Notes under the pieces: generated by a model | The model's database searches: none | What the model saw: the letters and a program-made list of their open reading frames with translations, nothing else | What the model was told of the DNA's origin: nothing | Program-made: the position numbers and the translations under genes | NCBI GenBank assembly: GCA_019752115.1 | Contig: JAIEMN010000051.1 | Coordinates: 1-37,529 of the forward strand | DNA from: Gemmatimonadaceae bacterium | Lineage (GTDB): Bacteria > Gemmatimonadota > Gemmatimonadetes > Gemmatimonadales > Gemmatimonadaceae | DNA length: 37,529 nucleotides | Reading direction: 5' to 3' | Shown here: positions 11,036-37,395 of the stretch, piece by piece | Numbering within the stretch: position 1 is the first letter of the stretch | Layout of the letters: each line of letters starts with the position of its first letter

Positions 11036-11649
11036 GCGACGCGCTCCGTGCGACCCGTATCGGCTTCCCACGCGAGAATCTGGGGGAGCTCGGCGACGAG
11101 CATGCCCAGTTCATCCAGCCCGGTCAGCAAGCCGTGCTTGGTGAACGCATCGACGGGGAACGAGAGCGCGGGGCCGTCGGTCCAATGCACGATCTGCGCC
11201 TCCAGGTCCACCGTCACGGTGAGGTCGGGGGCGCGCGTGAGGGCGTCGGTGAGCGTCGAGAGCTGTGCGCCCAGCGCGACCGTCAGCAGGCCGTTGCGAT
11301 TCGCGTTGCTGCGAAAGATGTCGGCGAACGAGGCGGCAATGACGGCCCGAAAGCCGGCATCGAGCAAGGCCCACGGAGCATGCTCGCGACTGGAGCCACA
11401 GCCGAAATTCTCTCCAGCCACGAGGAGTTGTCGCCCCGCCGCGGCCACACCATTCAAGACGAAGTCGGGGCGCGGCGCACCGTGTTCGTCGTACCGCCAA
11501 TCGTAAAATGCCAGCGCCCCGAGGCCGGCGCGCGCGGTGGTGGTCAGGAACCGAGCGGGAATGATCTGGTCCGTATCCACATCGTTGTGCGGGAGCACGA
11601 CCGCAGCGGATGCGAGCGTGGTCCACGGCGTACGCGTGGTGGTGCTCAT
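11032..11649 (-). CDS. leuD: 3-isopropylmalate dehydratase small subunit
   Basis: Small (swivel-domain) subunit of isopropylmalate isomerase, which with LeuC converts 2- to 3-isopropylmalate. The 205 residues match the usual bacterial LeuD length. The N-terminus contains [14 protein letters not shown], and the substrate-loop motif is [12 protein letters not shown] at about 81-92, both diagnostic for this subunit. The ATG at 11649 overlaps the leuC stop (ATGA) and leaves the standard N-terminus; the longer open frame upstream to 11880 is a shadow of leuC. Tight coupling to leuC suits a 1:1 complex. Confidence 0.96.
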
Positions 11650-14623: not shown

Positions 14624-15708
14624 ACGGCGACGGCCTCGTCGGCTGGCGCGGACGCCTGCACCCCGGTATCCGGTCGGGCGACCTTGGCGTTCAGGAACGG
14701 CATGAGCGCGCGCAACCGCACGCCGACCTGCTCGATCGGATGGTCGATGTCGGCGGCGCGGGCCGCGTTGAACTGCGATCGCCCCTGCTGATTTTCGGCC
14801 ACCCAGGTCCGGGCGAAATCGCCACTGCGGATATCAGCGAGCAGCTGTCGCATCGCGTCGCGGGTCTGATCGGTGATGATGCGTGGGCCAGCGATGTAAT
14901 CGCCATACTCGGCGGTATCGCTCACCGAGTAGCGCATGTAGTTGAGGCCCCCCTGATACATGAGGTCCACGATGAGCTTGAGTTCGTGGAGGCACTCGAA
15001 GTAGGCCATCTCGGGGCGATAGCCCGCTTCGACCAGCGTTTCGAAACCCGCCTTCACCAGCGCCGACACGCCACCGCAGAGCACCGCCTGCTCCCCGAAC
15101 AGATCGGTCTCGGTTTCTTCCGCAAAGCTCGTTTCGATCACGCCAGCGCGCGTACAGCCGATCGCCCACGCGTAGGCGAGCGCATCATCGCGCGCACCGC
15201 CGCTGGCATCCTGTGCGACGGCGATCAAGCCGGGGACCCCACCGCCCTGGGTGAAGACCTCGCGCACCCGATGTCCGGGGCTCTTCGGGGCGATCAGCGC
15301 CACGTCGACACCGGCCGGTGGCGCAATGAGGCCAAAGTGAATGTTGAACCCATGCGCGAACCAGAGGCTCTTCCCCGGACGCATACTGGGGGCGATTTCG
15401 CGATCGTAGAGGCGCTGCTGTTCCGTGTCGGGCGCGAGGATCATGATGATGTCGGCCTCGGCCGCGGCCTCGCCCACACTCACCACCCGGAGCCCGGCCG
15501 CCTGCGCGGCCGCCCAACTGCGCGAGCCTGGCCGCAGCCCGACGCGCACATCCAGTCCGCGATCGTGACAGTTGCGCGCGTGCGCATGCCCCTGGCTGCC
15601 GTAGCCGATGATGGCAATCCGCCGCCCCTGGAGCCGCGTGGGATCGGCATCGCGATCGTAGAACACGGGCAGCGCATCGAAGGTCGGGAACGGGGTCGTC
15701 GGGGTCAT
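14620..15708 (-). CDS. ilvC: Ketol-acid reductoisomerase (NADP+), class I
   Basis: Isomerises and reduces acetolactate / acetohydroxybutyrate to the dihydroxy acids for valine and isoleucine. The 362-residue length marks class I. The Rossmann motif [12 protein letters not shown] begins at 35, and the loop GLRPGSRSW has the Arg/Ser pattern of NADPH users. The C-terminal knotted domain carries the Mg ligands Asp202 and Glu206 ([10 protein letters not shown]), plus Glu238 and Glu242 (FECLHE). The start codon shares one base with the ilvN stop (TGATG on the minus strand), with GAGGAGG just upstream as a clear ribosome-binding site inside the end of ilvN. The stop overlaps the leuA start. Confidence 0.96.
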
Positions 15709-16253
15709 CAGGCAACCTCCTCATGGGGCGCGCCATCGGCTTGCGCGCGGTAGTCGTTGGGTGCTTCGAGCACGCGCGGCGTCGTGCCGCGGAGCATGGC
15801 CAGTTGGCCAGTGCGCATGAGTTCCGCGATGCCGAAGCGGCGCATCGCGCGCACCATCTCGTCGACGCGCTCGGGCACGTCGGTGTATTCGCAAATGACT
15901 TCGGCGGCCGTGCGATCGAGCACCCGGGCGCCGGCCGCTTCGGCCGCCCGTTGGGCGTACTCAAGCTGCTCGGCGTTCGTGTGCACCTTGAGGAGTGCCG
16001 TTTCGCGCACCACGGGAGCTGCATTCGACACGTCGAGGACGCCGATCACTTCCACCAGTCGGTCGAGCTGCTTCACGACCTGCACGGCGTCCGGCGCCTC
16101 GACGACCAGCGTCATGCGCGAGATGCCCGCGGTTTCACTGCGGCCCACGCTGAGCGAATCGATGTTGTAGCCCCGCCGGCGCAGCAGCGTGACCACGCGA
16201 TGGAGCACCCCCGCCTTGTCCTGCACCATGGCAATGAGCGTGTGCACGGCCAT
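15708..16253 (-). CDS. ilvN: Acetolactate synthase small (regulatory) subunit
   Basis: Regulatory subunit of acetohydroxyacid synthase; it activates IlvB and confers valine feedback inhibition. The 181 residues hold an N-terminal ACT domain ([20 protein letters not shown], about 1-76) and the usual C-terminal small-subunit domain ([10 protein letters not shown] ... TGQLAMLRG). The ATG at 16253 lies one base after the ilvB stop and begins exactly at the ACT domain; the frame open to 16538 is a shadow of ilvB. Gene order ilvB-ilvN-ilvC is the common bacterial one. The symbol ilvN could equally be written ilvH; the sequence does not separate the two isozymes. Confidence 0.95.
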
Positions 16254-16254
16254 C

Positions 16255-18102
16255 TCAGGCCCCCCGCGGCGCGGGGCGACGCGCCGCGCGCCAGCTGCGC
16301 GTCTGCTCCGCGTGATGGGCCTCGTCGTGCACGGCATCGTGGATGGCGCGCCCGGCGGGTACCATCGGAAACACATTCGCCTCACGCTCCACGCGGAAGT
16401 CGATGAGGACCGGCCCCGGGTGCGCCCACGCCGCGCGCACCGCGTCTTCGGCATCGGCGGCGTGCTCGACGGTGATCCCGCGGATGCCATGCGCCGCCGC
16501 CAACATGGCGAAGTCGGGGCCGGAGAGCGGCGTTTCACTGTAGCGCTCCCCCTCGAACAGCTGCTGCCACTGGCGCACCATGCCGAGATAACCGTTGTTG
16601 ACGATCGCGATCTTGACGTTCGCCAGCCGTTCCTGCCGAATGGTGGCCAGTTCGGCCGCCGTCATCTGGAATCCGCCATCACCGCAGATGGCCCAGACCG
16701 TCTGCGTCGGGTCGGCGATGGCCGCCCCCATCGCAGCCGGCACCGCGAACCCCATGGTCCCGGCGCCGCCGCTGGTGATGTGCGAGCGCGGGCGCCTCCA
16801 GTCGATGAGCTGCGCCGCCCACATCTGGTGCTGCCCGACATCCGTCACGACGCGCCAATCGTCGCGGCGGGCCGCGACGCGGTTGAAGGCCGCGAAGACA
16901 TCCTGTGGCATCAGGTCGGCGGTCCGCGTCGCGCGCCGATAGTGCTGGCGCGGCGCGAACTCGGCCTGCAGCGCAGCGATGTCCGCACGCCACGCCGCCG
17001 TGCGGTCGGGGCGCGCCGAGGTCCGCTGGATCAACAATTCCAGCACGTCGCGCGCGTCGCCGTGAATGCCGATCGCGGTGCCGACCAGCTTTCCGATCTC
17101 GGCGGCATCGATGTCCACGTGAATGATGCGCGCGTGTGGCGCGAACGTTGCGACCTTGCCGGTCACGCGGTCATCGAAGCGGCTGCCGATGTTGAGGAGG
17201 ACGTCACAGCGCTGGATGGCGCGATTCACGTGCACCCAGCCGTGCATGCCAGGCATGCCCAGCGCGAGCGGATGATCATGGGGCATGGCGCCGAGGCCGT
17301 GCAGTGTGGTCACGACCGGCGTACCGGTGCGCTCGGCAAAGCGTTGCAGCGCGGCCGTCGCGCCGCTCTGAATGACCCCGTTGCCGGCCAGAATGAGCGG
17401 ACGCGACGCCTGAGTCAGGGCGAAGACCGCCTCGTCCACGGCTCGGGTCGCGCTGTCGCTCAGTCGGCGACCGGCCGGGTGATAGCCAGGAAGGTTGATC
17501 GGCACATCCCAATCCGGAATGCTTCGTGCCTGCTGCGCGTCCTTGGTGATGTCGATGAGGACGGGGCCGGGGCGTCCGGTGCGCGCGATGTGAAATGCTT
17601 CGCGGAAAACCCGCGGCAGCTCCTGCACGTCGGTCACGAGGTAGTTGTGCTTCGTGATCGGCACCGTGATGCCGGTGATGTCGGTCTCCTGGAACGCATC
17701 GGTCCCGAGCAGGTGGCTGGGCACTTGCCCGGTGATCGCCACCAATGGCGTTCCATCCATGTAGGCGTCGGCGATGGCGCTGACGAGGTTGGTCGCGCCG
17801 GGGCCGCTGGTGCCGATGCACACGCCGACCTGTCCGGTGGCGCGAGCGTATCCTTCGGCGGCGTGTCCGCCCCCCTGCTCGTGGCGGACGAGCACATGCC
17901 GCAGCTGTGCCCGATAGTCCCACATGGCGTGGTAGAAGGGCATGATGCAGCCGCCTGGAATGCCAAAACAGACGGTGACGCCCTCGCGGATGAGCGCTTC
18001 ACACATGATCTGGGCGCCGGAACGCCAGGCGCCGTCGGCCGGCGGAGTCGCCGACGGGGAGATCGTTCCGGGATACGGGGTGGATTGGGCGTCGTGGGTC
18101 AT
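16255..18102 (-). CDS. ilvB: Acetolactate synthase large (catalytic) subunit
   Basis: Thiamine-diphosphate enzyme joining two pyruvates, or pyruvate and 2-ketobutyrate, in the first common step of branched-chain amino-acid synthesis. The 615-residue protein shows the catalytic Glu75 in RHEQGGGHAAEGYARATG. The ThDP/Mg motif runs GDGGFQM ... NNGYLGMVRQWQ, and an FAD-binding middle domain includes LNIGSRFDDRVTGK. The RQWQ tryptophan is the conserved residue of this family near the herbicide site. The ATG at 18102 follows an intrinsic terminator by only 14 bases, so transcription has to escape that terminator to reach the gene. It is the first structural gene of the seven-gene ilv-leu run. No Shine-Dalgarno is seen directly before the start. 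Confidence 0.95.
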   Translation of the reverse strand: MTHDAQSTPYPGTISPSATPPADGAWRSGAQIMCEALIREGVTVCFGIPGGCIMPFYHAMWDYRAQLRHVLVRHEQGGGHAAEGYARATGQVGVCIGTSGPGATNLVSAIADAYMDGTPLVAITGQVPSHLLGTDAFQETDITGITVPITKHNYLVTDVQELPRVFREAFHIARTGRPGPVLIDITKDAQQARSIPDWDVPINLPGYHPAGRRLSDSATRAVDEAVFALTQASRPLILAGNGVIQSGATAALQRFAERTGTPVVTTLHGLGAMPHDHPLALGMPGMHGWVHVNRAIQRCDVLLNIGSRFDDRVTGKVATFAPHARIIHVDIDAAEIGKLVGTAIGIHGDARDVLELLIQRTSARPDRTAAWRADIAALQAEFAPRQHYRRATRTADLMPQDVFAAFNRVAARRDDWRVVTDVGQHQMWAAQLIDWRRPRSHITSGGAGTMGFAVPAAMGAAIADPTQTVWAICGDGGFQMTAAELATIRQERLANVKIAIVNNGYLGMVRQWQQLFEGERYSETPLSGPDFAMLAAAHGIRGITVEHAADAEDAVRAAWAHPGPVLIDFRVEREANVFPMVPAGRAIHDAVHDEAHHAEQTRSWRAARRPAPRGA

Positions 18103-18116
18103 AGGCCTGGCAAGCG

Positions 18117-18149
18117 AAAAGGCCCCCTCCGCGCGGTGCGGAGAGGGCC
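18117..18149 (-). terminator. Intrinsic terminator of the ilv leader (attenuator 3:4 hairpin)
   Basis: On the minus strand GGCCCTCTCCGC (18149-18138) pairs with GCGGAGGGGGCC (18132-18121), a 12-bp stem with a single G-U and a 5-base loop, followed at once by TTTT (18120-18117). It stands between the leader ORF and ilvB, 14 bases before the ilvB start. A strong terminator ahead of the first structural gene makes sense only if termination is conditional. An outer pairing (CCTGGCGCAAGC at 18167-18156 with GCTTGCCAGG at 18115-18106) embraces the hairpin and might modulate it. Confidence 0.88.
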
Positions 18150-18239
18150 TCAGTGGCTTGCGCCAGGCTGCCTCTCCGCGGAACGGGAGAGGCGGCGGGG
18201 TTCGCGTTAGTTCATCGCGACAGGGCGGCCTGACTCCCG
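18117..18239 (-). promoter_or_regulatory. Ribosome-mediated attenuator of the ilv-leu operon
   Basis: Five segments can be drawn on the minus strand. Segment 0 is CGGGAG..AGGC inside the leader ORF (18239-18228). Segment 1 is GCCTCTCCCG (18193-18184), segment 2 is GCGGAGAGGC (18179-18170), segment 3 is GGCCCTCTCCGC (18149-18138), and segment 4 is GCGGAGGGGGCC (18132-18121). Pairs 0:1 (10 bp with a two-base bulge), 1:2 (8 bp perfect), 2:3 (9 bp perfect) and 3:4 (terminator) exclude their neighbours. Inferred logic: a ribosome stalled at Val/Leu/Ile codons leaves 0:1 and 2:3 to form and transcription continues; a ribosome reaching the leader stop melts segment 0, so 1:2 and 3:4 form and transcription ends. 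The pairings are seen; the switching order is inferred. Confidence 0.8.
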
Positions 18240-18332
18240 GGTGCTAAGCACACGTACCGACGTAACGACAAGCGTTACGACGGCGGGAATAAGGCGAAGA
18301 AGTCGCGACTGCACGGCGAACGGGCGAAGCAT
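18207..18332 (-). CDS. Branched-chain amino-acid leader peptide
   Basis: A 41-residue ORF too short for ordinary gene calling. Residues 11-29 read LLRLIPAVVTLVVTSVRVL: 12 of 19 are Leu, Ile or Val. All six Leu codons in the ORF are CTT and the one Ile is ATT, while the structural genes around it use mainly CTG/CTC and ATC; several Val codons are GTA or GTT. Such clustered rare codons are the hallmark of attenuator leaders, and the run resembles the LLRVISLVVISVVV part of E. coli IlvL. The ORF ends at TAA 14 bases before the first attenuator arm. The start is uncertain: ATG at 18332 is given, but an in-frame ATG at 18380 would make 57 residues, and neither has a good Shine-Dalgarno. It probably has no function as a peptide. 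Confidence 0.85.
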   Translation of the reverse strand: MLRPFAVQSRLLRLIPAVVTLVVTSVRVLSTRESGRPVAMN

Positions 18333-18415
18333 CAGTCGGGGAACGAGGGGCTCAGGGTAAAACGATGGTGCCGGGGCCATGACGATCGGGCGCTACGGCT
18401 GGTCACGCCCCGTGC

Positions 18416-18445
18416 AACCTGCCCGGGGTGAGGGGTGTCCGTCAA
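18416..18445 (-). promoter_or_regulatory. Candidate promoter of the ilv leader transcript
   Basis: On the minus strand TTGACG (18445-18440) is followed after 18 bases by CAGGTT (18421-18416). The -35 is close to TTGACA; the -10 is poor but of the A-GGTT kind tolerated in GC-rich genomes. It lies in the 178-base space between the esterase stop and the leader ORF and would give a transcript starting near 18410, about 77 bases before the leader ATG. Nothing else in this space resembles a promoter. Confidence 0.3.
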
Positions 18446-18510
18446 GGGGCCCGCCGTACGTGTTTCAGAAAACCCCCGCATTCGTGTCGCCGCCGCAGAG
18501 CGTCGGCGCG

Positions 18511-19770
18511 CTAGGGCGTCACCCCGAGATGGCGCAACAGAAAGGCCTCGGTGCGTGCGACCATCTCCGGCGTCTGCACGTGGCCGATCTCCTTCACGAT
18601 GAACAGCTCTTTGGGGGCGCTGACGAGATTGTACGCCGCGTACGCGGAGGTCGGAGCCACGGTGAGGTCGTTGTAGCCCCACGTGTAGAAGCCAGGCACC
18701 CGGACCAGTCGCGCGAAATTATCGCCGTCGTAGTACGGGAGTGTGGCCGCAATCTCGGCCTTGGCTTTGAGGCGCGAGGTGTCGGCAAAGACATGGGGCC
18801 AACCACCAGCGCGCCCGCGCCGATAGCCGAAATGATCGGCGAGCGCGGGGTGGGCCACCGCAATGGCCTTCACCCGCGGATCGAGCGCGGCCGCGGCCAG
18901 CGTGAGCATGCCGCCCTGACTGCCGCCGCGCACCACGTAACGCGCGGTGTCGACCTGCGGCAACGACATCAGGAAGTCGCCGGCCCGCACCGCACCGACG
19001 ATCACGCGCTTGTAGTAGTACTTGTCACGGTCCTCGATGCCGAAGAACTGGTATCCGCTCAGCGCGGTGGCGCGCAGCTCGTTGTAGAGCAGCGAATCGC
19101 GATCGACGGGAATGCCGTGAATGCCAATGGTGAGATGCACCACCCCCCGTGCGGCCAGGCGCGTGTTGGGGAAATACGGCCGCACGCCGGCGCCAGGCAC
19201 CACGAGCATCGCCGGATAGCGCCCCGGCGCCTTGGGGACCGACAACATGCCGTAGAGCCGGCTCCCCTCCTTCTGGTTCTGAAAGGAGACGTGATACACA
19301 TCGACCGTTTTGGTCGAGAGATCCGGGCGCGCCGTGAGCTGCGGGGCGAGGGGCACGCGACGCGCCTCGGCGATCGCCTTCTGCCAGAACGCCAGAAAGT
19401 CGTCGGGGAGCGTGGCGCTGGCATCGATGTCGGACACGTTGAAGCCGACGGTCGCCATCTCGCTCAAGGGCATGCCATCCACCTCGGCGGTGGCGGTGAG
19501 CCGCAGAAAACCGGGCGCACTCAGGGCACCGTCAATACGCGCCCCGCCGGCCGGGAGGGCGATCGTATCGACGCGCATGGGCTTCATCCGCTCCGGCGCG
19601 AGCGTCACGATGACCCGCACACCGGGGCGCTCGCGCCCGTTCTGCAGCACGCGCACGGTGAACGACGCGCGCTCTCCCACGCGATAGAGCCAGTCGTCGT
19701 GCGAGGCGGTGATCGTGAGGACCTGGGCGGCGGGCGGCTGGGTCGCGACGACGGCCGCCGGTGCGGGCAT
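18511..19770 (-). CDS. AXE1-type acetyl esterase (acetyl xylan esterase / cephalosporin-C deacetylase family)
   Basis: A 419-residue alpha/beta-hydrolase predicted to deacetylate sugars or related esters. An Ig-like N-terminal part (about 15-115, SFTVRVLQNGRERPGVRVIVTL) precedes the esterase domain. The nucleophile is Ser284 in RGGSQGGM, with acid Asp368 (WGYNDLT) and base His397 (EIGHVQT). Homologues with this build are usually exported, but from the ATG at 19770 no signal peptide is seen: the N-terminus MPAPAAVVATQPPAAQ lacks charge and a hydrophobic core. The open frame upstream, to 20061, is Arg-rich antisense-like sequence inside ilvD, so no better start was found. It follows ilvD by 14 bases and is probably cotranscribed with it, although it has no known role in branched-chain synthesis. 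AXE1 family is firm; the substrate is unknown. Confidence 0.85.
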   Translation of the reverse strand: MPAPAAVVATQPPAAQVLTITASHDDWLYRVGERASFTVRVLQNGRERPGVRVIVTLAPERMKPMRVDTIALPAGGARIDGALSAPGFLRLTATAEVDGMPLSEMATVGFNVSDIDASATLPDDFLAFWQKAIAEARRVPLAPQLTARPDLSTKTVDVYHVSFQNQKEGSRLYGMLSVPKAPGRYPAMLVVPGAGVRPYFPNTRLAARGVVHLTIGIHGIPVDRDSLLYNELRATALSGYQFFGIEDRDKYYYKRVIVGAVRAGDFLMSLPQVDTARYVVRGGSQGGMLTLAAAALDPRVKAIAVAHPALADHFGYRRGRAGGWPHVFADTSRLKAKAEIAATLPYYDGDNFARLVRVPGFYTWGYNDLTVAPTSAYAAYNLVSAPKELFIVKEIGHVQTPEMVARTEAFLLRHLGVTP

Positions 19771-19784
19771 TGGGAGGGGCGGCA

Positions 19785-21497
19785 CTAGGCGTCCGCGTAG
19801 ACGTGGGTTTCGGCCTTCGCGCCGGGGTGCACCACGGCGCCGTAGCGGGCCGGCCCCACCATCTGGGCGTAGCGCCAGATGGCCCCGCTCTGATAGTCGT
19901 GGGCGCGGGGCGTCCACTGGGCGCGGCGCGCGGCGAGTTCGCTGTCGCTCAGCTCCACGTCCATGGTGCCGGCGTCGGCATCGATCACGATGATGTCCCC
20001 GTCGCGGAGCAGAGCGATGGGGCCACCGACGGCGGCCTCGGGACCGACATGACCGATGCACAGCCCGCGCGTGGCCCCGCTGAAGCGACCGTCGGTGATG
20101 AGCGCGACGGTCTCGCCCATCCCCTGGCCGTAGATGGCGCTGGTCGTGGAGAGCATTTCGCGCATCCCGGGGCCACCGGCTGGCCCTTCGTAGCGAATGA
20201 CGAGCACGTCCCCGGCGGCGTAGTCGCGCTTCATCACCGCCTCGAAGCAGGCGTCTTCGCTGTCGAAGACGCGCGCCGGGCCGCGATGCTGGCGGTGCTT
20301 GAGCCCGGCCACCTTCACCACCGCGCCATCGGGCGCGAGGTTGCCGCGCAGCCCCACCAGGCCGCCGGTGGGGGAGATGGCCTGCGAGACGGGCATGACG
20401 ACCTTCTGATCACCCGGCACCACCACGTCGGCGAGATTCTCGGCGAGCGTCTTGCCCGTCACCGTGAGGCAGTCGCCGTGCAGGAACCCGCCGTCGAGGA
20501 GCGCCTTGAGCACCACGCCGGCGCCGCCGATGTCATGCACATCCTTGGCGAGATACTTCCCGCCCGGCTTGAGGTCGGCGATGAGCGGCGTGCGCTTGAA
20601 CACCTCGGCGACATCGAACAGATCGAAGGCGATGCCGCACTCGTTGGCGATGGCCGGCAGATGCAACGTGGCGTTGGTGGAGCCGCCCGTGGCGGCGACC
20701 ACGGCCGCCGCGTTCTCGAGCGCCTCGCGCGTCACGATCTTGCGCGGGCGCAGCCCGTCACGCAGGCAGCGCATCACCGCTTCCCCGGCGCGTTCGGCGT
20801 AGGCGTCGCGCGACTCGTATTCGGCCGGCGGACTGGCGGAGCCCGGCAACGCGAGCCCGATCGCCTCGGACACATACGCCATGCTGTTGGCGGTGTACTG
20901 CCCGCCGCAGGAGCCGGCGCCGGGGCACGCGACCTTTTCGAGCGCGGTGAGCTCCTCGAGCGTGCACTTGCCGGCGGCGTAGGAGCCCACGGCTTCGAAC
21001 ACGTCGAGTACCGTCACGTCGCGATTCTGGTAGCGCCCGGGGAGAATCGAGCCGCCATAGAGAAACACGCTGGGTACATCGAGGCGCACCATGGCCATCA
21101 TCATGCCGGGGAGCGTCTTGTCACAACCGGCCAGCCCCACGAGTGCGTCGTAGCAGTGCCCGCGCACGGTGAGTTCGATGCTGTCGGCGATCGTTTCGCG
21201 GCTCACGAGACTCGCCTTCATGCCGGCGTGCCCCATGGCGATACCATCGGTCACGGTGATCGTGGTGAACTCGCGCGGCGTGCCCCCGCCGCTGATCACG
21301 CCGCGCTTGGCGACCTCGGCCTGCCGCTTGAGCGCGATGTTGCAGGGGGCGGCCTCGTTCCAGCTCGACACGACCCCGACCAGCGGCCGCGCGATCTCCT
21401 CGGCGGTGAGCCCCATGGCGTAGTAGAAGGCGCGATGCGGCGCGCGCTCAGGGCCGCTGGTGGCGTGACGGCTGGGGAGGTGGCTCTTGTCGCTCAT
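19785..21497 (-). CDS. ilvD: Dihydroxy-acid dehydratase
   Basis: Dehydrates 2,3-dihydroxyisovalerate and 2,3-dihydroxy-3-methylvalerate to the 2-keto acids, the third step of valine/isoleucine synthesis. The 570-residue protein carries the three cluster cysteines Cys52 (AAPCNIAL), Cys125 (GCDKTLPGM) and Cys197 ([15 protein letters not shown]), and the catalytic-serine motif [11 protein letters not shown]. Length and the Cys pattern fit the IlvD/Edd family; [19 protein letters not shown] and the ilv context favour IlvD over phosphogluconate dehydratase. It is the only ilv gene ahead of the leader, so it lies outside the attenuator and should be transcribed from its own promoter in the space before 21747. 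The frame begins [13 protein letters not shown] with an ATG at 21497. Confidence 0.95.
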
Positions 21498-27590: not shown

Positions 27591-30053
27591 TCAGGGAGTG
27601 GTGCCGGGTTTCTTCTTGGTGCCCGGATCCATGCGGGTGTGGAGGACCAGCACTCCGCACTGGGAGCCGCTGCGCTGAAACTGCGCCGGAATGACCGCCG
27701 GCGATGGGTACCACTCGACCGCTTCGAGCTGATGCACGGCGACGGAGTTGAGGTCGAAGGGCTCACTCGGGACGCCTCCAGTGCGTACCGTGCCGTCCAT
27801 GAAGACCACCGGGAAACAGGCACAGATCATCCCCCCGCCCTTCTCGGCCAGTCGCGGCGTCAACGCATTCGGCGGGCCGCAGCTGCCGTCGTCCTTTTCC
27901 TTCACGAGCATTTGCACGTGCGTCGAGATCGGGTAGCGCCCGCCGGCAAACACCATGTTGCGGGCGTTGATCAGGGCGCTCCGCACCACCTGCCCGTCCA
28001 TCCGCTCCAGCTGGGTCCGGTCGAGGAACCACCCGAGCCCGACTTTACGGTTCTCCTCGAACTCGACCATGCGGAGCGGTGGCTTGCTGGCAATGATCTC
28101 CACCGAGTCGAGCACGGTGAGCTTGTTGAGCACGATGCGCCGCTCTTCTTCATCGTTGGCGGCGAAGGTGAGGGTCGTGTTGAGGGGCGAGAAGCCCAGC
28201 TTCCGGACAACAATCTCATGCGCGCCGGCGGTCACTTCGTCGATGCGGAAGGCGCCCTTGTCGTCGGTGCGCGCCGTACGATCACTGCCGCTCACGCTGA
28301 CATCGGCGCCGGCAATGGGGGTGCCCGTCGAGTCGGCCACGACGACGCCGCGGAAGGTCGAGGCGGCCGCGAGGGTGACATCCACGGCGATCGGTACCGT
28401 CGCAAAGCGCTGCGCGGGCCCGAGACGCGCCGACTGCACCTGCGAGCGCCCCGTCTTGGGGAAGGCGCGTACGGTGAGCGCCGCCTCTACCGGCACGCCA
28501 CAGAGCCGATAGCCGCCGGAGGCGTCGGTCCGGGTCTGGAGGCGCTTCCCCTGCCCCTGCGTGAGCGCGGCCATGCTGGTGGCGCTCAACTCGGTCCAAT
28601 CGGCCGCCACGGGAATGTCGGCGAGGCCTTCGGTGCTCCCCGTGCGCGTCACGGCCCCCACGATGGCCCCGGTGCCCTTGTTCAGGGAGAAACTGGCACC
28701 GCACAGCGTCTGCGCGATCTGCGCTTCGGTGGGCACCTTCACCACGAGGGGGGCGAGCGAATCGCGTACCACCACGGTGCTCCCGGCCGAGGCGCGCATC
28801 GCTTCGAGGGCGGGCGTGGCCACGGCAAGCGTGTACTGCCCGGGGAGCACGTCGGTGAGCTGGAACGTGCCGTCGGCGCCGGAGCGGGTGCGGTTCGTGG
28901 TCCCCGACAGGGACACCGAGGCCCCGGCGAGGGGTTTGCCACTGACGCTGTCGCGCACGACACCGCTTACCGTCACGAGCGGCCGCTTGAAGAGCGTGTC
29001 GGCGCCTCGGCGAATGGCCACCACCATACCGCCGGTGCTCTGCAGCTGATCGACGCGCGTCTTGGTACCGCCGAACTGTTCGCGGGAGGTGAGCGGCATG
29101 CGCAGCTCCCACGTTTCGATGATCACCGCGCCGTTCGGGAGGCGCGCGAACCGCATGGTGCCGCCCCCCGGCACAGGTGGCGTGGGCACGCCCTGCGGCA
29201 TGGTGAAGCTGAACTCCGCGCGTTGCAGTTGGGCGCTGGCGCGCTGCACCCAGAAGGTGCCGCGAATCTCGGAGGCCTTGGCGCGCTGTGGCGCCGGCTC
29301 GAAGGCCACGCCAATCTCGCTGGTGTCTTTCGAGGCGACGAGCCGGAAGCAGTGATCGTCGAGGAACTGGGGCGCCACGAAGCCGTCGATGCCCGGCGCG
29401 TTGTAGGTGAGCGCGTCGTCCTTGTCGATCCACACGTAGCCGCGCTTGCGCAGCGTATCGATGGGGAAAGTGGCCCACGGCGCGGTCATGTTGCCGGAGC
29501 GCATGCCCAGCTGCTGATCGAGCAGCTTGCCGCCCGGATCGAGCACGCGCTGCACGTTCATGATGCTGGTCGTCAGGCCGCGGGTGCCGGTGGTGAGCAG
29601 CGACGCCGCCAGACTGGTCTGCGCCTGCTCCCACACCTCGAGCAGCGCGGCGTCGCTCGCATCGGCGCGCCCACAACGGTTCGAGGCCACGACGCGCACG
29701 GTGGCCAGCTGCACCTGCGCCCCCTCGAGCGTCACCGTGGGGGTGACGGTGGCCCCCGCGCCCAGGGCGAAGGGCTCGGTGACTGTGGCCTGAAAGCCGA
29801 TGCGCTGGGCGCGGAGCCGCATGGTGCCCGCGCGCTGCGCGACCACCCGGAAGTCGCCGCGCTCATCGCTCAGTGCGCGCGCGACCACGGTGTTGGTGCT
29901 GTCGAGCAGTGCGACCACGACACCGACAACCGGCCGCTTGGCGGCATCCTGCACCGATCCGCGCACGGTCTGGGCCGCCAGCCCGGCCGCACCAACGGGA
30001 AGGAGCGCCAGCGCCGTGAGCAGGCGCGGCACGAGACGAACAGGACGGGACAT
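27591..30053 (-). CDS. Exported multi-domain protein: carboxypeptidase-regulatory repeats plus TonB-receptor plug-like domain, no barrel
   Basis: An 820-residue protein of unknown role. The signal peptide is 1-28 (LLTALALLPVGAAGLAAQ). Four carboxypeptidase-regulatory-like modules follow near 29-110, 360-440, 462-540 and 566-640 (for instance VVRDSVSGKPLAGASVSLSG and VVADSTGTPIAGADVSVSG). An unassigned mixed domain at about 130-350 separates the first from the rest. The C-terminal 645-808 looks like a receptor plug (LTVLDSVEIIASK ... GQVVRSALINARN ... FMDGTV ... LEAVEWYPSPAVIPAQF) with four cysteines, but the protein ends there, so no transmembrane barrel exists. It may be a periplasmic or surface partner that engages TonB, whose gene follows after 13 bases; that is inference. 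The ATG at 30053 is chosen because it opens into the signal peptide. It diverges from the subtilase gene. Confidence 0.82.
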   Translation of the reverse strand: MSRPVRLVPRLLTALALLPVGAAGLAAQTVRGSVQDAAKRPVVGVVVALLDSTNTVVARALSDERGDFRVVAQRAGTMRLRAQRIGFQATVTEPFALGAGATVTPTVTLEGAQVQLATVRVVASNRCGRADASDAALLEVWEQAQTSLAASLLTTGTRGLTTSIMNVQRVLDPGGKLLDQQLGMRSGNMTAPWATFPIDTLRKRGYVWIDKDDALTYNAPGIDGFVAPQFLDDHCFRLVASKDTSEIGVAFEPAPQRAKASEIRGTFWVQRASAQLQRAEFSFTMPQGVPTPPVPGGGTMRFARLPNGAVIIETWELRMPLTSREQFGGTKTRVDQLQSTGGMVVAIRRGADTLFKRPLVTVSGVVRDSVSGKPLAGASVSLSGTTNRTRSGADGTFQLTDVLPGQYTLAVATPALEAMRASAGSTVVVRDSLAPLVVKVPTEAQIAQTLCGASFSLNKGTGAIVGAVTRTGSTEGLADIPVAADWTELSATSMAALTQGQGKRLQTRTDASGGYRLCGVPVEAALTVRAFPKTGRSQVQSARLGPAQRFATVPIAVDVTLAAASTFRGVVVADSTGTPIAGADVSVSGSDRTARTDDKGAFRIDEVTAGAHEIVVRKLGFSPLNTTLTFAANDEEERRIVLNKLTVLDSVEIIASKPPLRMVEFEENRKVGLGWFLDRTQLERMDGQVVRSALINARNMVFAGGRYPISTHVQMLVKEKDDGSCGPPNALTPRLAEKGGGMICACFPVVFMDGTVRTGGVPSEPFDLNSVAVHQLEAVEWYPSPAVIPAQFQRSGSQCGVLVLHTRMDPGTKKKPGTTP

Positions 30054-30251: not shown

Positions 30252-31937
30252 ATGCGCGTCTCTCCGATGACCATCGCTGCTGCCCCCCTGCCCGGCCGGT
30301 TGCGCTTGGCGTTCCTGCCGGCCCTGCTGTCGGCGGCCCTGCTGAGCGCGTGCGCGCGCGCGGGGGCGCCCGCCACGGCGCCGCAGCCGGTGCAGCAGCC
30401 CCCCATCGCCGTCACGCCGGCTCCGGCGGCGCCGAGTGCGCCAGCCAGGCAGGACGGGCCCCGGGCGGACTGGCATCGGCTCGACCTGGATGTGGATGGC
30501 ATCGCGGGGGTCGGGAGCGAGCGCGCCATCAAGGAACTGCTCGCCAATCGGCAGCCGACGCGTAAAGTCGTCGTGGCGGTCATCGACGGCGGTGTGGACA
30601 CCGCGCACACCTATCTCGCCGCGAATCTGTGGAAGAACCCCAAGGAAGTGGCCGGCAACGGCCGCGACGATGACGGCAACGGCTTTGTCGACGATGTGTA
30701 CGGCTGGAACTTCCTGGCGCAGGCCGACGGCGCGGTCATTCGCTACGACACGTTCGAGCTGACGCGCGAGTATGCCGCCTGCAAGGGGCAGCCGGCGGGG
30801 CGCGACCTGCCGAAGCCGGCGGCCAGGATGTGCGATTCGCTCTCGGTGGCGTATCAGAGCAAGGCGCGCGAAGTGAACGGCACGCTCATGCAGATTCGCG
30901 GCCTGAGCGGCACGCTCGAACAGGCGTCGAGCATGCTCCGGCAGGCCATGGGCCCCGGGCCGCTGCTCAAGGCGCGTGTGCAGAATTTTGCGCCGACCTC
31001 AGCGCAGCAGGAGCAGGCCAAGCGGGTGTGGCTGCAGCTCGAGGCCAACGGACTCACCGAGGCGGAGCTGACGGACGCGCTGGCGGCCTACGAGTCGCAG
31101 AGCAAGTACGGGCTCGATACGCTCTTCAACCCGCACAGCGCCGGCGCCGTGCGGGGGACGACCGACGTGACGGGCCCGGACGCCCTGCACGGCACGCACG
31201 TGGCCGGCATTATCGGCGCGGTGCGCAACGCGGCCAACGCCGTGCAGGGCATCGCGCCCAACGTGGCGATCATGGCGGTGCGCACCGTACCGGATGGCGA
31301 CGAGCGCGACCTCGATGTCGCGCGCGCCATTCGCTACGCGGTGGACAACGGCGCGCAGGTCATCAACATGAGCTTCGGCAAGGCCTACTCGCCGTACAAG
31401 GCCAGTGTGGACAGCGCGGTGAAGTACGCTGAAAGCAAGGGCGTGCTGCTCGTGCACGCGGCGGGGAACGATGGCGAGAACAACGATCTCGTGCCGAGCT
31501 TCCCGACCGCCGTGTACGCGGGCGGCGGCGTGGCGAGCAACTGGCTCGAGATCGGCGCGAGCTCCTACAAGGGGCTGAGCGCACTCGCGACGAGCTTCTC
31601 CAACTACGGCAAGCAGCGTGTGGACTTCTTCGCGCCGGGCGAGGACATTCTCTCCACCGCGCCGGGCGGCGGCACCAAGCGGGAGAGCGGGACGAGTATG
31701 GCCGCGCCGGTGGTGAGCGGTGTCGCGGCGCTTCTGCTCAGCTACTTCCCCACCCTCACGCCGCTGCAGGTGAAGGAGATCCTGCTGCAGTCGGTGCGCA
31801 CCTTCCCCAATGCGCAGGTGGCCAAGCCCGGTGACGACGGGCAGCGCGTGCCGTTTGCGGCCCTGTCGAAGACGGGCGGGGTGGTGGATGCGTACGCGGC
31901 GGTGAAGCTCGCGTTGCAGCGGGAGACGCGGCCGTAG
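30252..31937 (+). CDS. Subtilisin-type S8 serine peptidase, probable lipoprotein
   Basis: A 561-residue exported protease. The N-terminus has a hydrophobic stretch ending in the lipobox LLSAC (Cys34), which predicts lipid attachment. A Pro/Ala-rich linker follows to about residue 68. The S8 triad is complete: Asp112 (VIDGGVDTAH), His313 (HGTHVAG) and Ser482 (GTSMAAP), with oxyanion Asn406 (HAAGND). Between Asp and His lie about 200 residues, far more than in plain subtilisin; the insert (about 155-300) is helical and charged and may be a regulatory or substrate-binding addition. An acidic, Asn/Asp-rich stretch (GNGRDDDGNGFVDD) just after the catalytic Asp looks like a calcium-binding loop. 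The ATG at 30252 is used; another at 30267 would also keep the signal. A much longer open frame from 27639 is antisense to the plug-protein gene and is not real. Its stop is four bases from the end of the convergent regulator gene. Confidence 0.92.
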   Translation: MRVSPMTIAAAPLPGRLRLAFLPALLSAALLSACARAGAPATAPQPVQQPPIAVTPAPAAPSAPARQDGPRADWHRLDLDVDGIAGVGSERAIKELLANRQPTRKVVVAVIDGGVDTAHTYLAANLWKNPKEVAGNGRDDDGNGFVDDVYGWNFLAQADGAVIRYDTFELTREYAACKGQPAGRDLPKPAARMCDSLSVAYQSKAREVNGTLMQIRGLSGTLEQASSMLRQAMGPGPLLKARVQNFAPTSAQQEQAKRVWLQLEANGLTEAELTDALAAYESQSKYGLDTLFNPHSAGAVRGTTDVTGPDALHGTHVAGIIGAVRNAANAVQGIAPNVAIMAVRTVPDGDERDLDVARAIRYAVDNGAQVINMSFGKAYSPYKASVDSAVKYAESKGVLLVHAAGNDGENNDLVPSFPTAVYAGGGVASNWLEIGASSYKGLSALATSFSNYGKQRVDFFAPGEDILSTAPGGGTKRESGTSMAAPVVSGVAALLLSYFPTLTPLQVKEILLQSVRTFPNAQVAKPGDDGQRVPFAALSKTGGVVDAYAAVKLALQRETRP

Positions 31938-31941
31938 CGAG

Positions 31942-34900
31942 TCAGCGGGGGCGGTCGGGCGGCGTCTGCCACACCACGTCCGTGCGCACCCCCGTCCAGA
32001 GGTCGACGGGGCCGAAGGCCAGCAGCGCCCCCTTCGCCTCGTCGCCGAGGCGGAGCCGATACTGGAGGCGGCGCGCCACTGGTTCGGCGGAGATGTACAG
32101 CACCCGGCCGTTGATCGCGACGCCGCAACGCCCATCGGCAAGGATCTGAATGCGCAGCGTCCACCACTGCCCGGTGCGCAGCGAGTCGGCGAACGGGCCG
32201 GCGTCAAAATCGAGTGGCGTCCCGCCGACAAAGGCGAAGTGGCGCTTGCCCCATTCGCCTTCGTCGGGAAAGGTGAGGCCGCACAGGGTGCTGGGAATCA
32301 CCGACGCCGGGAGCGAGCCATTCGGATTCGCCTGCACGATTCGTGAGGAATCGAGCCCGCCCAACAGCATCGCCCGGATGCGTTGATTGGCGGTGCCGTT
32401 GAACGGTGTGGAGACGCGGACCTCGAACCCCAGTCCGCTGTCGGCGGACCACTGCTGACGCGAGATCGCGGCACTGACGTACGCCCCATCGCCGCGACTC
32501 CAGAGCACGGGCAGGCCACCGGGGCCTGGCACCACGACCGGGCGCGGTTCTCCCCAGGCAAACCAGCGCCCCGACCAATCGGGCGTCCATGCCTCGTGCA
32601 GCAAGGCGCGATGCAGCGAACCGCGCACCGCGAAGCGAGCACGTACCGACCGCCATCCGGCGAGCGACGCCTCGATCTCCACCGCCCCCGGCCGCCGGGG
32701 AATGACTTCCCCATCCGGCGTGACGATGGCAATCGTCGTATCGAGTGACCGCCACCGGACACGCGCCGGCGTGGCGATCGGCTGCCCGCCGTCGCCCCGT
32801 GGCACGACGTGCAGGCGCGTACTCGCCCCCAACGGGAGCACGCGACTGCTGTCGCTGAAAGTGAGATGCGTGACGAGCAGCGACCGATCGGAGCCCCCCT
32901 CCCACCAGCGCACGTCCACGGCGCGTTCGTCGACAGTCTCCACGACATGCGCGTCGGTGGGCCGATCGAGCGGAATGACCCAGTCGCGGATTCCCACGCC
33001 GCCGTTCCCGCGCAGCGACGCCACGGCATACTTGCCGTCGCGGCTCAGCGCCGCGGTGACCACGGTGGGCCCGAGCAGGCGACGCACGGTCGCGCGCGTC
33101 CAGTCGTAGGCGAACAGTGGGCGCTCCGTGTTCGACTGACCGAGCAAGACGAGTTCATCGAGCCCGGCCCAACCAATAACCGCCGAGGTGTACGACAGGA
33201 TACGCCGGCACTCGGGCTCGACGGCGCCGTCCACATCCACCACACACACCTCGGGGCCATTGCTGCCGCCTTCGCGGACAAACGCGATGCGCGTCCCATC
33301 GGGGGAGATGTGCGCGGAATTCTCGTGAAAGGGCCCGTGCGTCACCGCGCGCGCCACGCCGGTGGCGGTGTCGAACACCGCAATGTTGTAGTGGCCATGC
33401 TCGGGACTCGACCAGCGACTGCTCGCCCCGAGCAGCGCCGAGCCGTCGGGGAGCCAGTCGCTGACCACGTCATCACGAATGCCCTTCGTGAGGCGGCGGA
33501 GGCCGGCCGGTGTGCGGAGCCAGATATCCAGCGTCGTGCTGTCGCCAGAATCGTGCGTCCAGGCCATCGACTGCTGATCCGGACTCTGGTGCACGGACAG
33601 ATCGGGGTGGATCAGCGCCTCCTGCGCGATCTGCCGCCCATCGCCACCCACCGACACGGGCTTGGCCACCAACGTCCGCGTCGTGCCCCAGCGCTCCGGC
33701 GATACACCAACCTGTGAGACCTCGAGCGACGGCATCACATACAGCAGGCGCTGCTCGTGCGCGAGGCGATCTGCCCGCGCGCGCCACGACACGACGGTAA
33801 ATCCTCCGAGTGCCAGCAGGGCCGTCGCGGCCAAGCCCCGCCGCAACGGCGACCACAGCCCCACACGCCAGCTCCGCGGTTCGGCGCGCGCGAGCAGGTC
33901 GATGGCCCCCCGGTCCAGCGGGAGCTGTCCATCGAGGGCCCCTGCCAACCAGTCGGCGGCGACGTCGCGGGCGGGGCGGCGATCCCGCTGTTCACGCGCG
34001 CGCAGCAGCAGGCGGCGGAACAGCGACTGCGCCTCCCCAGACTCCCCCGCCAACAGCAGATGGCGCAGCGCACGCCGGGCAAGCCCCGACTCGAAGGCCC
34101 GTTCTTCGGCCGACCGCATGAACGCGACGCCGATCGCCGCATGCGCCCGTTGCTGATCCGCCGTCGCGCTGGCGGTGCGCACGACATCCGCCAGCTCGTC
34201 ATGCGCCGGGATCCATCCACCGGTGATGCGCGTGATGATGCCCGTGCGCTCGAGCACATCGAGCGGGGCGGCGAGCGCCGCCGGCTCGCATCCCGCGGCC
34301 TGGGCGAGCACCAAGCGGTCCACCGGTGCACCGGCGGTCGCCAGCAGCAGCAACAGCCAGCGGGCGTCGGCCGGAATCGCCTCGACACGCTGGCGCAGCG
34401 CCCCACCGCCCTGCAGCAGCGCTGAACAGGCCGCGTCATCGAGCACCCGCCACGCTCGCTGTTCCAGGGCGAGCGCGCGCCGATCGAGCGCCAGCCGCAG
34501 CGTTTCGAGCACGAGCAGCGGGCTCCCACCGGTGGCGGCGTGCAGCTGCGCCACGCGCGCGTCGCTCCAGACGGTGGTGGGATCGCCGAGGCTCGACACG
34601 AGCGCGCCCACATTCGCCGCCGAAAGCGGGAGCAGCGACAAGACCTCGGTCGTGCCGGCGAGCGGCGCACGCTCCGGGCGCGACGCCGTCAACGCGAGCA
34701 CGCGGGCATCGCCAAGCCGCGACCAGAGCCCGTCCAGCAGACGGAGCGAGTCGGCGTCGATCCAATGCAAGTCATCGACGGCCAGAATGAAGCGCTGTTC
34801 GTCGGCGACCGCGTGCACGAGATCGACCAGCGCCATCAGCCAGCGGCGACTGGCCTCCTCACCCGTGGTGGGCTCGGGCGCCGTGTTGTAGCGCCGCGAG

Positions 34901-35970
34901 AGCGTGGGGTTGAGCGCGACGAGCGCGCTGGCCGACGCGGGCGCGATCCCGAGCGATCCGGGCAGCTCGGCGATCGCCGCCGCGAGATCGCTCACGAACG
35001 CGAACGGGACCTCGCGGTCTCCCATGCGTCCGCCAACCGAGACGATCCGCGCCCCGCCCGCCGCGGCGCGCGCCAGCACCTCACGCAGCAGCCGCGACTT
35101 GCCGACGCCCGCCGCGGCGCTCAGATGCACCCGGCGCGCGGGGGCCCGCCGCGCCGCCTGCCACGCGCCGATGAGCGTGGCGAACTCGCGTTCACGACCG
35201 GTGAGTTCGGCGGTGAGTTGCGGCGGTTCATCGGTGTTGGCCTCATCGCTCGGCGTCGGCCCATGCACGCGGGCGAGCAAGGCCCGTGTCGAGCCCTCGA
35301 GCGCGACGCCCTCGCGCTCCGCCCACAGCTGCAGGGCGTTCGCTTCCATGAGCGCCGTGACGCCGTCGTTGACACTCAGCGCCACTTCGATCACGAGCCG
35401 CGCGCTTTCTTCACGATGCGGCGTAATCGTCCGCACCTCGCGCGCGCGCTCGCGGGCCTCCGCCGCACGCCCCGCGTTGAGGGCGCGGCGCACGAGCAGC
35501 TCGGCGGCGCCCAGATAGCCCTGCTCCAACCGATCACGCTCGAGATCGGCCCAGTGCTCAAAGCGCGCCGCGCCCGGAATCGCGAAGCCCGGCAGGAAGG
35601 CGCCGCCGTACGCCGCGACCGCGTCATCGAGCGCATCGCGATCGAGCGCGCGCAAAAAGGTGTCGCGGTCGCCCGGCAGGGGGCGCACCAGCGACAACTC
35701 TTCGGCCCCAACGAGCGCCTCGTCGCCCAGTAGGCGGCGCAACAGGAAGAGCGCCTGGCGCAGCGCGGGGCGTGCCTGCGACGGCGGCACGTCGCTCCAC
35801 AACAGGTCGAGCAGCGACTCGCGGGTGACACTCCGCCCGGCGACGGAGAGATAGACCAGCACCGCGAGCGCCTTGCCCGGGCCGAGGACCACACGCGGCT
35901 CCCCGGCGCCCGCCTCCGCCGTGGAGTCGAGCAGGGCCGCCGAGCCGAGGGTCCGCAGATACAGCGTCAC
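31942..35970 (-). CDS. Membrane-spanning SARP/BTAD - AAA ATPase - beta-propeller regulator
   Basis: A single 1342-residue reading frame joining a transcription factor head to an extracytoplasmic sensor-like tail. Order: winged-helix domain of OmpR/SARP type (1-95), BTAD helical domain (about 96-235), AAA/STAND-like ATPase (about 255-450; Walker A AAAGVGKS at 285-292, Walker B FILAVDD ending at Asp400), helical repeats to about 700, one membrane helix (about 706-728, GLAATALLALGGFTVVSW), TolB-like propeller (about 785-1050, with SPDQQSMAW, SPDGTRIAF, SRDGKYAV), Ig-like BIG2 module (1050-1117) and a concanavalin/laminin-G-like end (1120-1335). The first Gly of Walker A is Ala. The start is GTG at 35970, giving the standard SARP N-terminus LRTLGSAAL. 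It follows the M20 peptidase gene by 15 bases, so both are probably cotranscribed. Target genes are unknown; sensing of an envelope polymer or sugar is inference. Confidence 0.88.
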   Translation of the reverse strand: MTLYLRTLGSAALLDSTAEAGAGEPRVVLGPGKALAVLVYLSVAGRSVTRESLLDLLWSDVPPSQARPALRQALFLLRRLLGDEALVGAEELSLVRPLPGDRDTFLRALDRDALDDAVAAYGGAFLPGFAIPGAARFEHWADLERDRLEQGYLGAAELLVRRALNAGRAAEARERAREVRTITPHREESARLVIEVALSVNDGVTALMEANALQLWAEREGVALEGSTRALLARVHGPTPSDEANTDEPPQLTAELTGREREFATLIGAWQAARRAPARRVHLSAAAGVGKSRLLREVLARAAAGGARIVSVGGRMGDREVPFAFVSDLAAAIAELPGSLGIAPASASALVALNPTLSRRYNTAPEPTTGEEASRRWLMALVDLVHAVADEQRFILAVDDLHWIDADSLRLLDGLWSRLGDARVLALTASRPERAPLAGTTEVLSLLPLSAANVGALVSSLGDPTTVWSDARVAQLHAATGGSPLLVLETLRLALDRRALALEQRAWRVLDDAACSALLQGGGALRQRVEAIPADARWLLLLLATAGAPVDRLVLAQAAGCEPAALAAPLDVLERTGIITRITGGWIPAHDELADVVRTASATADQQRAHAAIGVAFMRSAEERAFESGLARRALRHLLLAGESGEAQSLFRRLLLRAREQRDRRPARDVAADWLAGALDGQLPLDRGAIDLLARAEPRSWRVGLWSPLRRGLAATALLALGGFTVVSWRARADRLAHEQRLLYVMPSLEVSQVGVSPERWGTTRTLVAKPVSVGGDGRQIAQEALIHPDLSVHQSPDQQSMAWTHDSGDSTTLDIWLRTPAGLRRLTKGIRDDVVSDWLPDGSALLGASSRWSSPEHGHYNIAVFDTATGVARAVTHGPFHENSAHISPDGTRIAFVREGGSNGPEVCVVDVDGAVEPECRRILSYTSAVIGWAGLDELVLLGQSNTERPLFAYDWTRATVRRLLGPTVVTAALSRDGKYAVASLRGNGGVGIRDWVIPLDRPTDAHVVETVDERAVDVRWWEGGSDRSLLVTHLTFSDSSRVLPLGASTRLHVVPRGDGGQPIATPARVRWRSLDTTIAIVTPDGEVIPRRPGAVEIEASLAGWRSVRARFAVRGSLHRALLHEAWTPDWSGRWFAWGEPRPVVVPGPGGLPVLWSRGDGAYVSAAISRQQWSADSGLGFEVRVSTPFNGTANQRIRAMLLGGLDSSRIVQANPNGSLPASVIPSTLCGLTFPDEGEWGKRHFAFVGGTPLDFDAGPFADSLRTGQWWTLRIQILADGRCGVAINGRVLYISAEPVARRLQYRLRLGDEAKGALLAFGPVDLWTGVRTDVVWQTPPDRPR

Positions 35971-35985
35971 AAGCGATGGCTGACG

Positions 35986-37395
35986 TTACTTCCCCTTCTT
36001 GCCGGTCGCCTTCCCCTTCGTCGGGGTCGCCGCGACCCGCACCAGCGTGCGGTAGATCATGTCCGTGCCCTGCGCGAGCGACGTGATCGCCACGCGCTCG
36101 TCGTTGCCGTGCATGCGACGCAACTCGTCGTTCGTGATGGGATACGGATAGATGCCGTAGACCGGCACATTCCGCGACCGCCACGCCGCGGCATCGGTCC
36201 CCGCCTGGAACAGATACGGCGTAACCGCCGCCTGCGGCCACTGCACCTTGGCTTCGGCCGCGAGCGCCTTATAGAGCTCGTTGTCCTGGGGCGACGGATT
36301 GCTGGCCCCGGTACGCCCGGTCACGCGCACGGTGAGCAGCGGATCGTTGAACAGCTTTTCGAAGGTGGCCTGCAGCGCCGCCGGATCGGTCCCCGGGATG
36401 ATGCGCAGATTGACCTGCGCCTCCGCCGACCCCGGGATCACGTTGGAGCGGAAGCCGCCGTTCATGATGACGGGCGCGATCGTGCCGCGCATGAGCGAGT
36501 GGAGCAGCGCGTCCTTCGACAGCTCCTTGTCGGCGCGGGCCTGCGCGTCGGGCGTCCCGTTCAGGAGATCGCGGAAGAGCTGCGCCGTCTCGCCGGTCGT
36601 GGTCTTGGCCAGCGCGTCGAAGTACTGCCGCGACTCGGCGGTGAACTGCAGCGGGAGATCGTAGCCCGACAGCTTGGCGAGCGCCTTGCCCACCGTGATG
36701 AGCGCATTGTCGGGGAGCGGCATCGAGGAGTGGGTGCTCGTGCCCTTGGCGGTGAGCGTCATGATCACCGACTGCTTGTCTTCGGTGGAGATGCTCACGT
36801 ACTGCACCGACTTGTCATCACGCTGAATGATCCAGCCGCCTTCGTTCAGCGCGAACTCGGCGTCCATCAGATTCCAGTGGTCCTTCGCCAGCCACGTCGT
36901 GTTGAGCGGCTGCCCTTCTTCGTCGGCCTCGGCGAGGAAGATCACGTCGCGGTCGAGCGGCACCTTGCGATCGGCGAGCAGCATGGCCGCCCGTGCAAAC
37001 ACCGCCGTGCCGCCCTTGAAGTCGATCGCCCCGCGACCGTACACATAGCCGTCCTTGATGACGCCGGCGAACGGATCGAGCGACCACTTCTCGCGCTCCA
37101 CCCCCACGACATCCACGTGCGCCGCGAGCAGCACGGGCTTCTTGCTGCCGTTGCCCTTGAGGCGCGCAAAGAAGTGGACCTTGCCGCTGTCGGGCGTGGG
37201 GATGACGGTGACCTCAAAGCCGCGCGCCTTGAACATCGGCCCCAGCACATCGGCGATCCCCTGGGTCCTGCCGGGCGGATTGCTGGAATTGACGCGGATG
37301 AGCTGCTGGAGGAGGAGCGCAGTGGAATCGACGGGCTGGGCGGCCAGCGGGGCGGCAATCAGGAGGGCCGCGGCGGCGAGGAGGGAGGGGCGCAT
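35986..37395 (-). CDS. Secreted M20-family metallopeptidase
   Basis: A 469-residue exported zinc exopeptidase / carboxypeptidase. The signal peptide is 1-19 (LLAAAALLIAAPLAAQ). The M20 metal site is visible: His93 (AAHVDVV), bridging Asp125 (GRGAIDFKGG), catalytic Glu159 and metal ligand Glu160 (EADEEG), and a late His in RRMHGNDER. The lid (dimerisation) domain spans about 210-330. PYLFQAGTDAAAWR fits M20 carboxypeptidase / Xaa-His type enzymes; the substrate is not determined. The C-terminus is Lys-rich (TKGKATGKKGK). The ATG at 37395 starts the signal peptide directly. It is the first gene of a pair with the membrane-spanning regulator, and its upstream region contains a direct repeat at 37458-37503 that may be a mobile-element end. 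Confidence 0.92.
   Translation of the reverse strand: MRPSLLAAAALLIAAPLAAQPVDSTALLLQQLIRVNSSNPPGRTQGIADVLGPMFKARGFEVTVIPTPDSGKVHFFARLKGNGSKKPVLLAAHVDVVGVEREKWSLDPFAGVIKDGYVYGRGAIDFKGGTAVFARAAMLLADRKVPLDRDVIFLAEADEEGQPLNTTWLAKDHWNLMDAEFALNEGGWIIQRDDKSVQYVSISTEDKQSVIMTLTAKGTSTHSSMPLPDNALITVGKALAKLSGYDLPLQFTAESRQYFDALAKTTTGETAQLFRDLLNGTPDAQARADKELSKDALLHSLMRGTIAPVIMNGGFRSNVIPGSAEAQVNLRIIPGTDPAALQATFEKLFNDPLLTVRVTGRTGASNPSPQDNELYKALAAEAKVQWPQAAVTPYLFQAGTDAAAWRSRNVPVYGIYPYPITNDELRRMHGNDERVAITSLAQGTDMIYRTLVRVAATPTKGKATGKKGK

Follow-up and report, generated by a model that had tools for sequence, protein, structure and literature searches.

A predicted membrane-tethered SARP-STAND regulator with exchangeable external sensors in Gemmatimonadota

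We analysed a 37,529-nucleotide stretch of DNA from a Gemmatimonadaceae bacterium (GenBank assembly GCA_019752115.1, contig JAIEMN010000051.1), hereafter the window, which is one entire contig within a 5.17-Mb genome whose named relatives are Gemmatimonadota. The window encodes a large regulator of 1342 amino acids as a single uninterrupted open reading frame (ORF) with a GTG start on the minus strand (31942-35970, read 35970→31942). An earlier sequence-only reading, which gave no strand, had described one giant protein composed of a SARP head, an AAA switch, a membrane helix, a propeller and a lectin-like sensor. This description was borne out by the ORF, by Pfam, by structure models and by full-length relatives. 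Searches of the window protein itself against Pfam returned AAA_16 (residues 255-422) and PD40 (874-908), with Trans_reg_C and BTAD missing the E 0.01 threshold in this protein. In aligned relatives Trans_reg_C was found in 22/30, BTAD in 19/30 and AAA_16 in 30/30 and, for the exterior, PD40 in 27/28 and Big_2 in 11/28. AlphaFold (AF2) models were built in two pieces, residues 1-700 and 730-1342, from alignments of the window protein with its relatives. The mean predicted local distance difference test (pLDDT) scores were 91.8 and 88.8 respectively, and each domain was confirmed in these models.

The N-terminal part, like all features of the gene, is encoded on the minus strand and begins with an OmpR/SARP-type winged helix (residues ~1-100; 35671..35970) followed by a BTAD helical domain (~101-240; 35251..35670), the arrangement of a SARP. 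Residues 1-241 match AfsR (8k60; Z 16.7, root mean square deviation (rmsd) 3.8 over 227), and EmbR was also matched. The phosphate-contacting residues W74, R87, R94 and K95 of AfsR correspond to W58, R71, R78 and R79 of the window protein; W58 and R71 are invariant in the family and the other two positions are mostly R or K. Next comes a STAND nucleotide-binding module (~252-600; 34171..35217). Its hhGRExE (257-263), Walker A (285-292), Walker B (394-400), hhhToR (424-431), GxP (482-484) and MHD-like HD (590-591) motifs could be aligned and are largely conserved in 30 sequences, Walker A reading GxGK[ST]R and Walker B DD. Both the Walker A lysine and the H-D pair are invariant. The H-D pair directly follows the winged-helix hairpin, the position of the MHD motif in NLR proteins. 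In the region 252-696 the model is matched by STAND proteins, namely PH0952 at Z 18.9 (rmsd 8.0 over 343) and MalT at Z 17.9 (rmsd 8.6 over 355); because several domains were aligned together, these rmsd values are large. Between the STAND module and the membrane lies an arm-like helical region (~601-705; 33856..34170), with AF2 helices at 603-694 and PH0952 and MalT alignments reaching ~692-696.

Beyond a predicted single membrane helix (711-731; 33778..33840) the protein continues with a TolB-like propeller (~739-1026; 32893..33756), an immunoglobulin-like (Ig-like) domain of Big_2 type (~1027-1116; 32623..32892) and a concanavalin/L-type-lectin-like domain (~1120-1330; 31981..32613). The propeller assignment is based on the AF2 model, on PD40 and on a match of the exterior to TolB (2w8b; Z 23.0, rmsd 3.1 over 258). 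Big_2 in the relatives and profile matches to Ig-like structures identify the second domain, and the third matches the carbohydrate-recognition domain of Emp46p (2a6x; Z 16.4, rmsd 3.0 over 189). Sequence profiles concur: they recover TolB, with E values as low as 4.8e-24, as well as Ig-like proteins, and give weak matches to AfsR and PH0952.

The sequence-only reading had placed a single membrane helix at residues 706-728. A single helix is upheld by conservation in relatives, with boundaries better set at ~711-731. In the window protein the stretch reaches a 19-residue Kyte-Doolittle value of 1.42 (713-731), which is among the weakest of the family, and other, soluble stretches of it are more hydrophobic. 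The case for a membrane helix is made by the conserved hydrophobicity of the relatives and not by the window protein alone. Across 32 proteins the sequence of the stretch is poorly conserved, yet it is hydrophobic at one alignment position in 32/32 and is the most hydrophobic 19-residue stretch in most of them. In the same 32 proteins the 15 residues before the helix carry on average ~4.0 R/K and 0.25 D/E, against 1.6 R/K and 1.9 D/E after it, and this excess of R/K before the helix is expected for an N-in/C-out orientation under the positive-inside rule. Moreover, four cysteine columns lie beyond the helix, namely C909 (32/32) and C921 (32/32) in the propeller and C1230 (30/30) and C1282 (29/30) in the lectin-like domain, with no comparable column before the helix in the aligned family members. 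Their one-sided distribution would fit an oxidising compartment, and these near-invariant cysteines may form disulfides; the TolB, Big_2 and lectin folds likewise speak for an exported exterior. Taken together, the alignments and models place the SARP head, the ATPase of STAND type and the arm N-terminal to the predicted helix, and the propeller, Ig-like and lectin-like domains on its far side.

The fusion is carried by 31 relatives, and full-length single ORFs occur in dozens of genomes, comprising named Gemmatimonadota contigs and many genomes of the same order. A profile of the sensor found matches at E 1e-25 or better in 36/151 genomes of the order and 26/121 genomes of the phylum. The matches include a second family of the class, whose members retain the head, helix and propeller. 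Judged from these sequences, the family is conserved across Gemmatimonadota. An assembly error, or a propeller that is elsewhere a separate gene, was considered and found in neither form. The relatives are single ORFs, and the apparent sensor-only hits examined (in genomes G137, G164, G006 and G018) are genes cut by contig ends. One relative (L148; G160:C40:98500-106500) has its winged helix and BTAD (297-amino-acid frame) out of frame with the rest (1118-amino-acid frame); this frame change between BTAD and ATPase could be either decay or a sequencing error.

The same head is found with several other C-terminal parts. Relatives with a helix fall into classes bearing the propeller exterior, a different exterior of ~300 residues or a TPR exterior. 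A further class, with proteins of ~610-760 and 1100-1130 residues, has no comparable helix, its best Kyte-Doolittle stretch being mostly <1.45; one member reaches 1.58, but with charged residues inside the stretch. Heads from Chloroflexota, Pseudomonadota and other phyla have no clear helix at that place. For the ~300-residue exterior of the 1050-amino-acid class, Pfam returned nothing. These exteriors (L103:9930-10841, L104-L116) are carried by the same head and helix and have in common a conserved 'TNW...GDGND'-like segment, and L103 is a paralogue in the window's own genome. A third kind of sensor, a TPR-type exterior, follows the SARP-STAND head and membrane helix in two relatives (L124:1918-3912, L125:1043-3016). 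An 839-amino-acid gene at L104 (exterior 17143-18672) combines a SARP head, a membrane helix and a TPR exterior but lacks the STAND ATPase. On a tree of 84 heads, no fewer than nine changes among five labels were required, fewer than in any of 200 shuffles; its well-supported branches imply a minimum of two changes for the propeller and likewise for the Ig-like exterior. The tree, which gives no direction of change, and the exterior classes together indicate that the exterior has been exchanged while the head and helix stayed.

We then considered the DNA upstream of the regulators. Forty-one upstream regions showed a peak of direct repeats at a spacing of exactly 11 (125 vs 29 +/- 9 in shuffles) with the core T(G/A)ACG, giving the candidate operator T(G/A)ACG-N6-T(G/A)ACG. 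Counting T(G/A)ACG pairs at spacing 11 with at most one mismatch, 29/41 regulator upstream regions contained the repeat compared with 26/210 control genes that have an intergenic region upstream (p 8e-14), and spacings of 8-10 and 12-14 were near background. Fourteen of 32 control hits were divergent neighbours sharing the gap of the regulator, and among non-adjacent genes the count was 18/364. Both the comparison of spacings and the control genes argue against a chance enrichment of the repeat. The SARP of AfsR occupies its DNA as two adjacent protomers, one per 11-nt repeat (PMC10936776). As 11 bp is the repeat length bound by the AfsR SARP dimer, the relatives are likely to be autoregulated via their own upstream repeats. 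The divergently transcribed neighbours sharing the repeat are candidate targets; signal peptides were predicted for 8/17 of them vs 24% (p 0.04), a weak excess from a crude predictor. In the window's own genome, a one-mismatch TGACGC pattern gave 92 hits at spacing 11 vs 40 for the reversed pattern, and 77 vs 63 at spacing 14. From so weak a genome-wide signal no targets can be named other than one SARP-type paralogue on C24, where a perfect TGACGC-N5-TGACGC (L156; C24:235525-235541) lies in the gap upstream of that gene.

We consider it probable that the window protein is a single-pass inner-membrane one-component receptor with a STAND switch and a SARP head. The evidence also favours, on the whole, a receptor class of Gemmatimonadota in which transmembrane STAND (NLR-type) signalling reaches a SARP head from interchangeable external sensors and acts on its own 11-bp operator. 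Signal, switch mechanism and targets can be proposed by analogy with AfsR and MalT. The exterior would lie in the periplasm and bind either a protein partner or a ligand from the envelope or the environment, and the arm would run into the membrane helix rather than, as in AfsR and MalT, lead to a soluble TPR sensor. With no signal, the STAND module would be closed (ADP) and the SARP head held inactive. An external signal would move the helix and arm, whereupon the module could open and bind ATP, and SARP heads would pair side by side on the 11-bp direct repeats and recruit RNA polymerase. When AfsR binds ATP, its SARP is freed from inhibition by the C-terminal NOD and TPR domains (PMC10936776), and the arm of MalT switches from the closed ATPase to the sensor loaded with inducer and back (PMC4381067).

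Several observations weigh against this interpretation. The helix of the window protein is, as noted, weakly hydrophobic (1.42) and ends in WRAR, and the junction at 701-729 lies outside both models. The repeat is missing from 12/41 upstream regions; its core was derived from the same data set, and a number of these regions share common descent. No operator-like repeat precedes the window gene, which sits 15 bp behind a gene for an exported M20 peptidase (35986..37395, minus strand; PF01546, E 6.4e-25), the contig ends 134 bp past that gene, and these 134 bp contain no such repeat either.

A different course of events, which we regard as unlikely, is that the protein is a membrane-tethered precursor from which signal-triggered proteolysis near the helix (regulated intramembrane proteolysis) frees a cytosolic SARP-STAND fragment, which would then work as a soluble regulator. 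Such a freed head would plausibly be functional, as soluble proteins with this head occur in related genomes. However, the junction of arm and membrane shows conserved hydrophobicity and basic flanks and no conserved sequence resembling a cleavage site, and a protease gene is not a recurrent neighbour, although one of this kind could be encoded elsewhere. CadC, moreover, is reported to be active while membrane-integrated (PMC6320335).

The sequence-only reading had also paired the regulator with the M20 peptidase as maker or remover of its ligand. A secreted-type M20 gene does adjoin the regulator here, with an N-terminus resembling a signal peptide, and the two genes, on the same strand and 15 bp apart, probably form one transcript. 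However, no adjacent M20 gene was seen in ~40 other family neighbourhoods, the pairing being confined to the window genome, and M20-like genes lay several genes away in two loci only. We therefore place the peptidase outside the conserved system and give little credence to its making or removing the regulator's ligand. In most other members an intergenic gap of ~70-800 bp precedes the gene, and the neighbours differ by clade. The neighbourhood was also tried as a clue to function and rejected, the recurrent neighbours (PTPS with GTP cyclohydrolase I, ThyX, EF-G) following clades with no common theme.

It is very improbable that the protein is a soluble AfsR-like large SARP in which residues 706-728 form a helix buried in the fold and the beta domains stay in the cytosol. 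The moderate hydrophobicity of the window helix and the solubility of the large SARPs known to us would agree with such a protein. Against it stand the hydrophobic position in all 32 proteins, the positive-inside flanks, the cysteines found only after the helix, and the soluble relatives with the same head, which have no comparable stretch. A STAND-type defence or alarm receptor that is not a gene regulator is hardly credible, for although the STAND core is structurally like NLR and resistosome proteins, there was no PADLOC match, the identified neighbours are metabolic or housekeeping, and the SARP head has conserved DNA-contact residues and an associated repeat.

To our knowledge, AfsR and MalT are soluble and CadC-type membrane-integrated regulators have no ATPase switch; the DNA-binding domain of MalT is C-terminal. 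AfsR, a large SARP of Streptomyces (PMC10936776), resembles the predicted membrane-tethered receptor in its SARP winged helix and BTAD and its STAND/NOD ATPase with arm, and its 11-nt direct-repeat operator has a candidate counterpart in the upstream regions of relatives. It differs in ending in a TPR sensor where the window protein has a predicted membrane helix with propeller, Ig-like and lectin-like domains; soluble large SARPs of the AfsR type have a C-terminal TPR sensor, in place of which the predicted helix and a beta-rich exterior stand here. MalT and PH0952 (PMC4381067, PMC10427625, PMC6468293) share the STAND core and arm, but their sensor is a soluble TPR, whereas here the sensor would lie across the membrane and the DNA-binding head is N-terminal. 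TolB has the same propeller fold but is a free periplasmic protein and not the exterior of a regulator. The 839-amino-acid Gemmatimonadota protein described above likewise carries a SARP head on a membrane helix but has no STAND module and a TPR-type exterior.

The ToxR/CadC family (PMC5430869, PMC6320335) has a comparable layout, each protein uniting a winged helix in the cytosol with one membrane helix and a sensor outside. The sequence-based topology evidence points to this layout in the window protein and, as the sequence-only reading had proposed, its combination with an ATPase between winged helix and membrane is well supported by sequence. The differences are that BTAD, STAND ATPase and arm (~600 residues) intervene and that the exterior is much bigger and built from different folds. 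The protein would work like ToxR/CadC and is not a member of that group, whose winged helix is joined to the membrane helix without an ATPase. It is best filed as a variant of membrane one-component regulators, a ToxR/CadC-like receptor with a SARP-STAND engine. We found no description of a membrane-tethered SARP-STAND architecture in the literature searched, whose coverage left out most subscription journals. Every module is known; it is their combination, a membrane-tethered SARP-STAND protein with interchangeable external sensors, that this literature did not show. If the interpretation holds, a membrane helix can serve to drive an NLR-like switch, and Gemmatimonadota possess a class of envelope receptors. 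The family further provides a set of naturally exchanged sensors on a common head, and in the 11-bp repeat a directly testable DNA target.

Lastly, we describe the remaining features of the window. Upstream of the M20 gene, before the contig end (37396-37529), two exact or near-exact copies of GTGTCACCCATCATCCCGGTCTCG form a 24-bp tandem direct repeat, which does not fit the 11-bp operator. On the other side of the regulator, an S8 subtilase gene on the plus strand (30471-31937) is convergent with it, with 4 bp between the stop codons, and beside this lies a CarboxypepD_reg-rich gene on the minus strand (27591-30032). Further away, minus-strand genes at 9947-21497 resemble a branched-chain amino acid biosynthesis cluster of leu/ilv type, as judged by eye from their N-terminal sequences.

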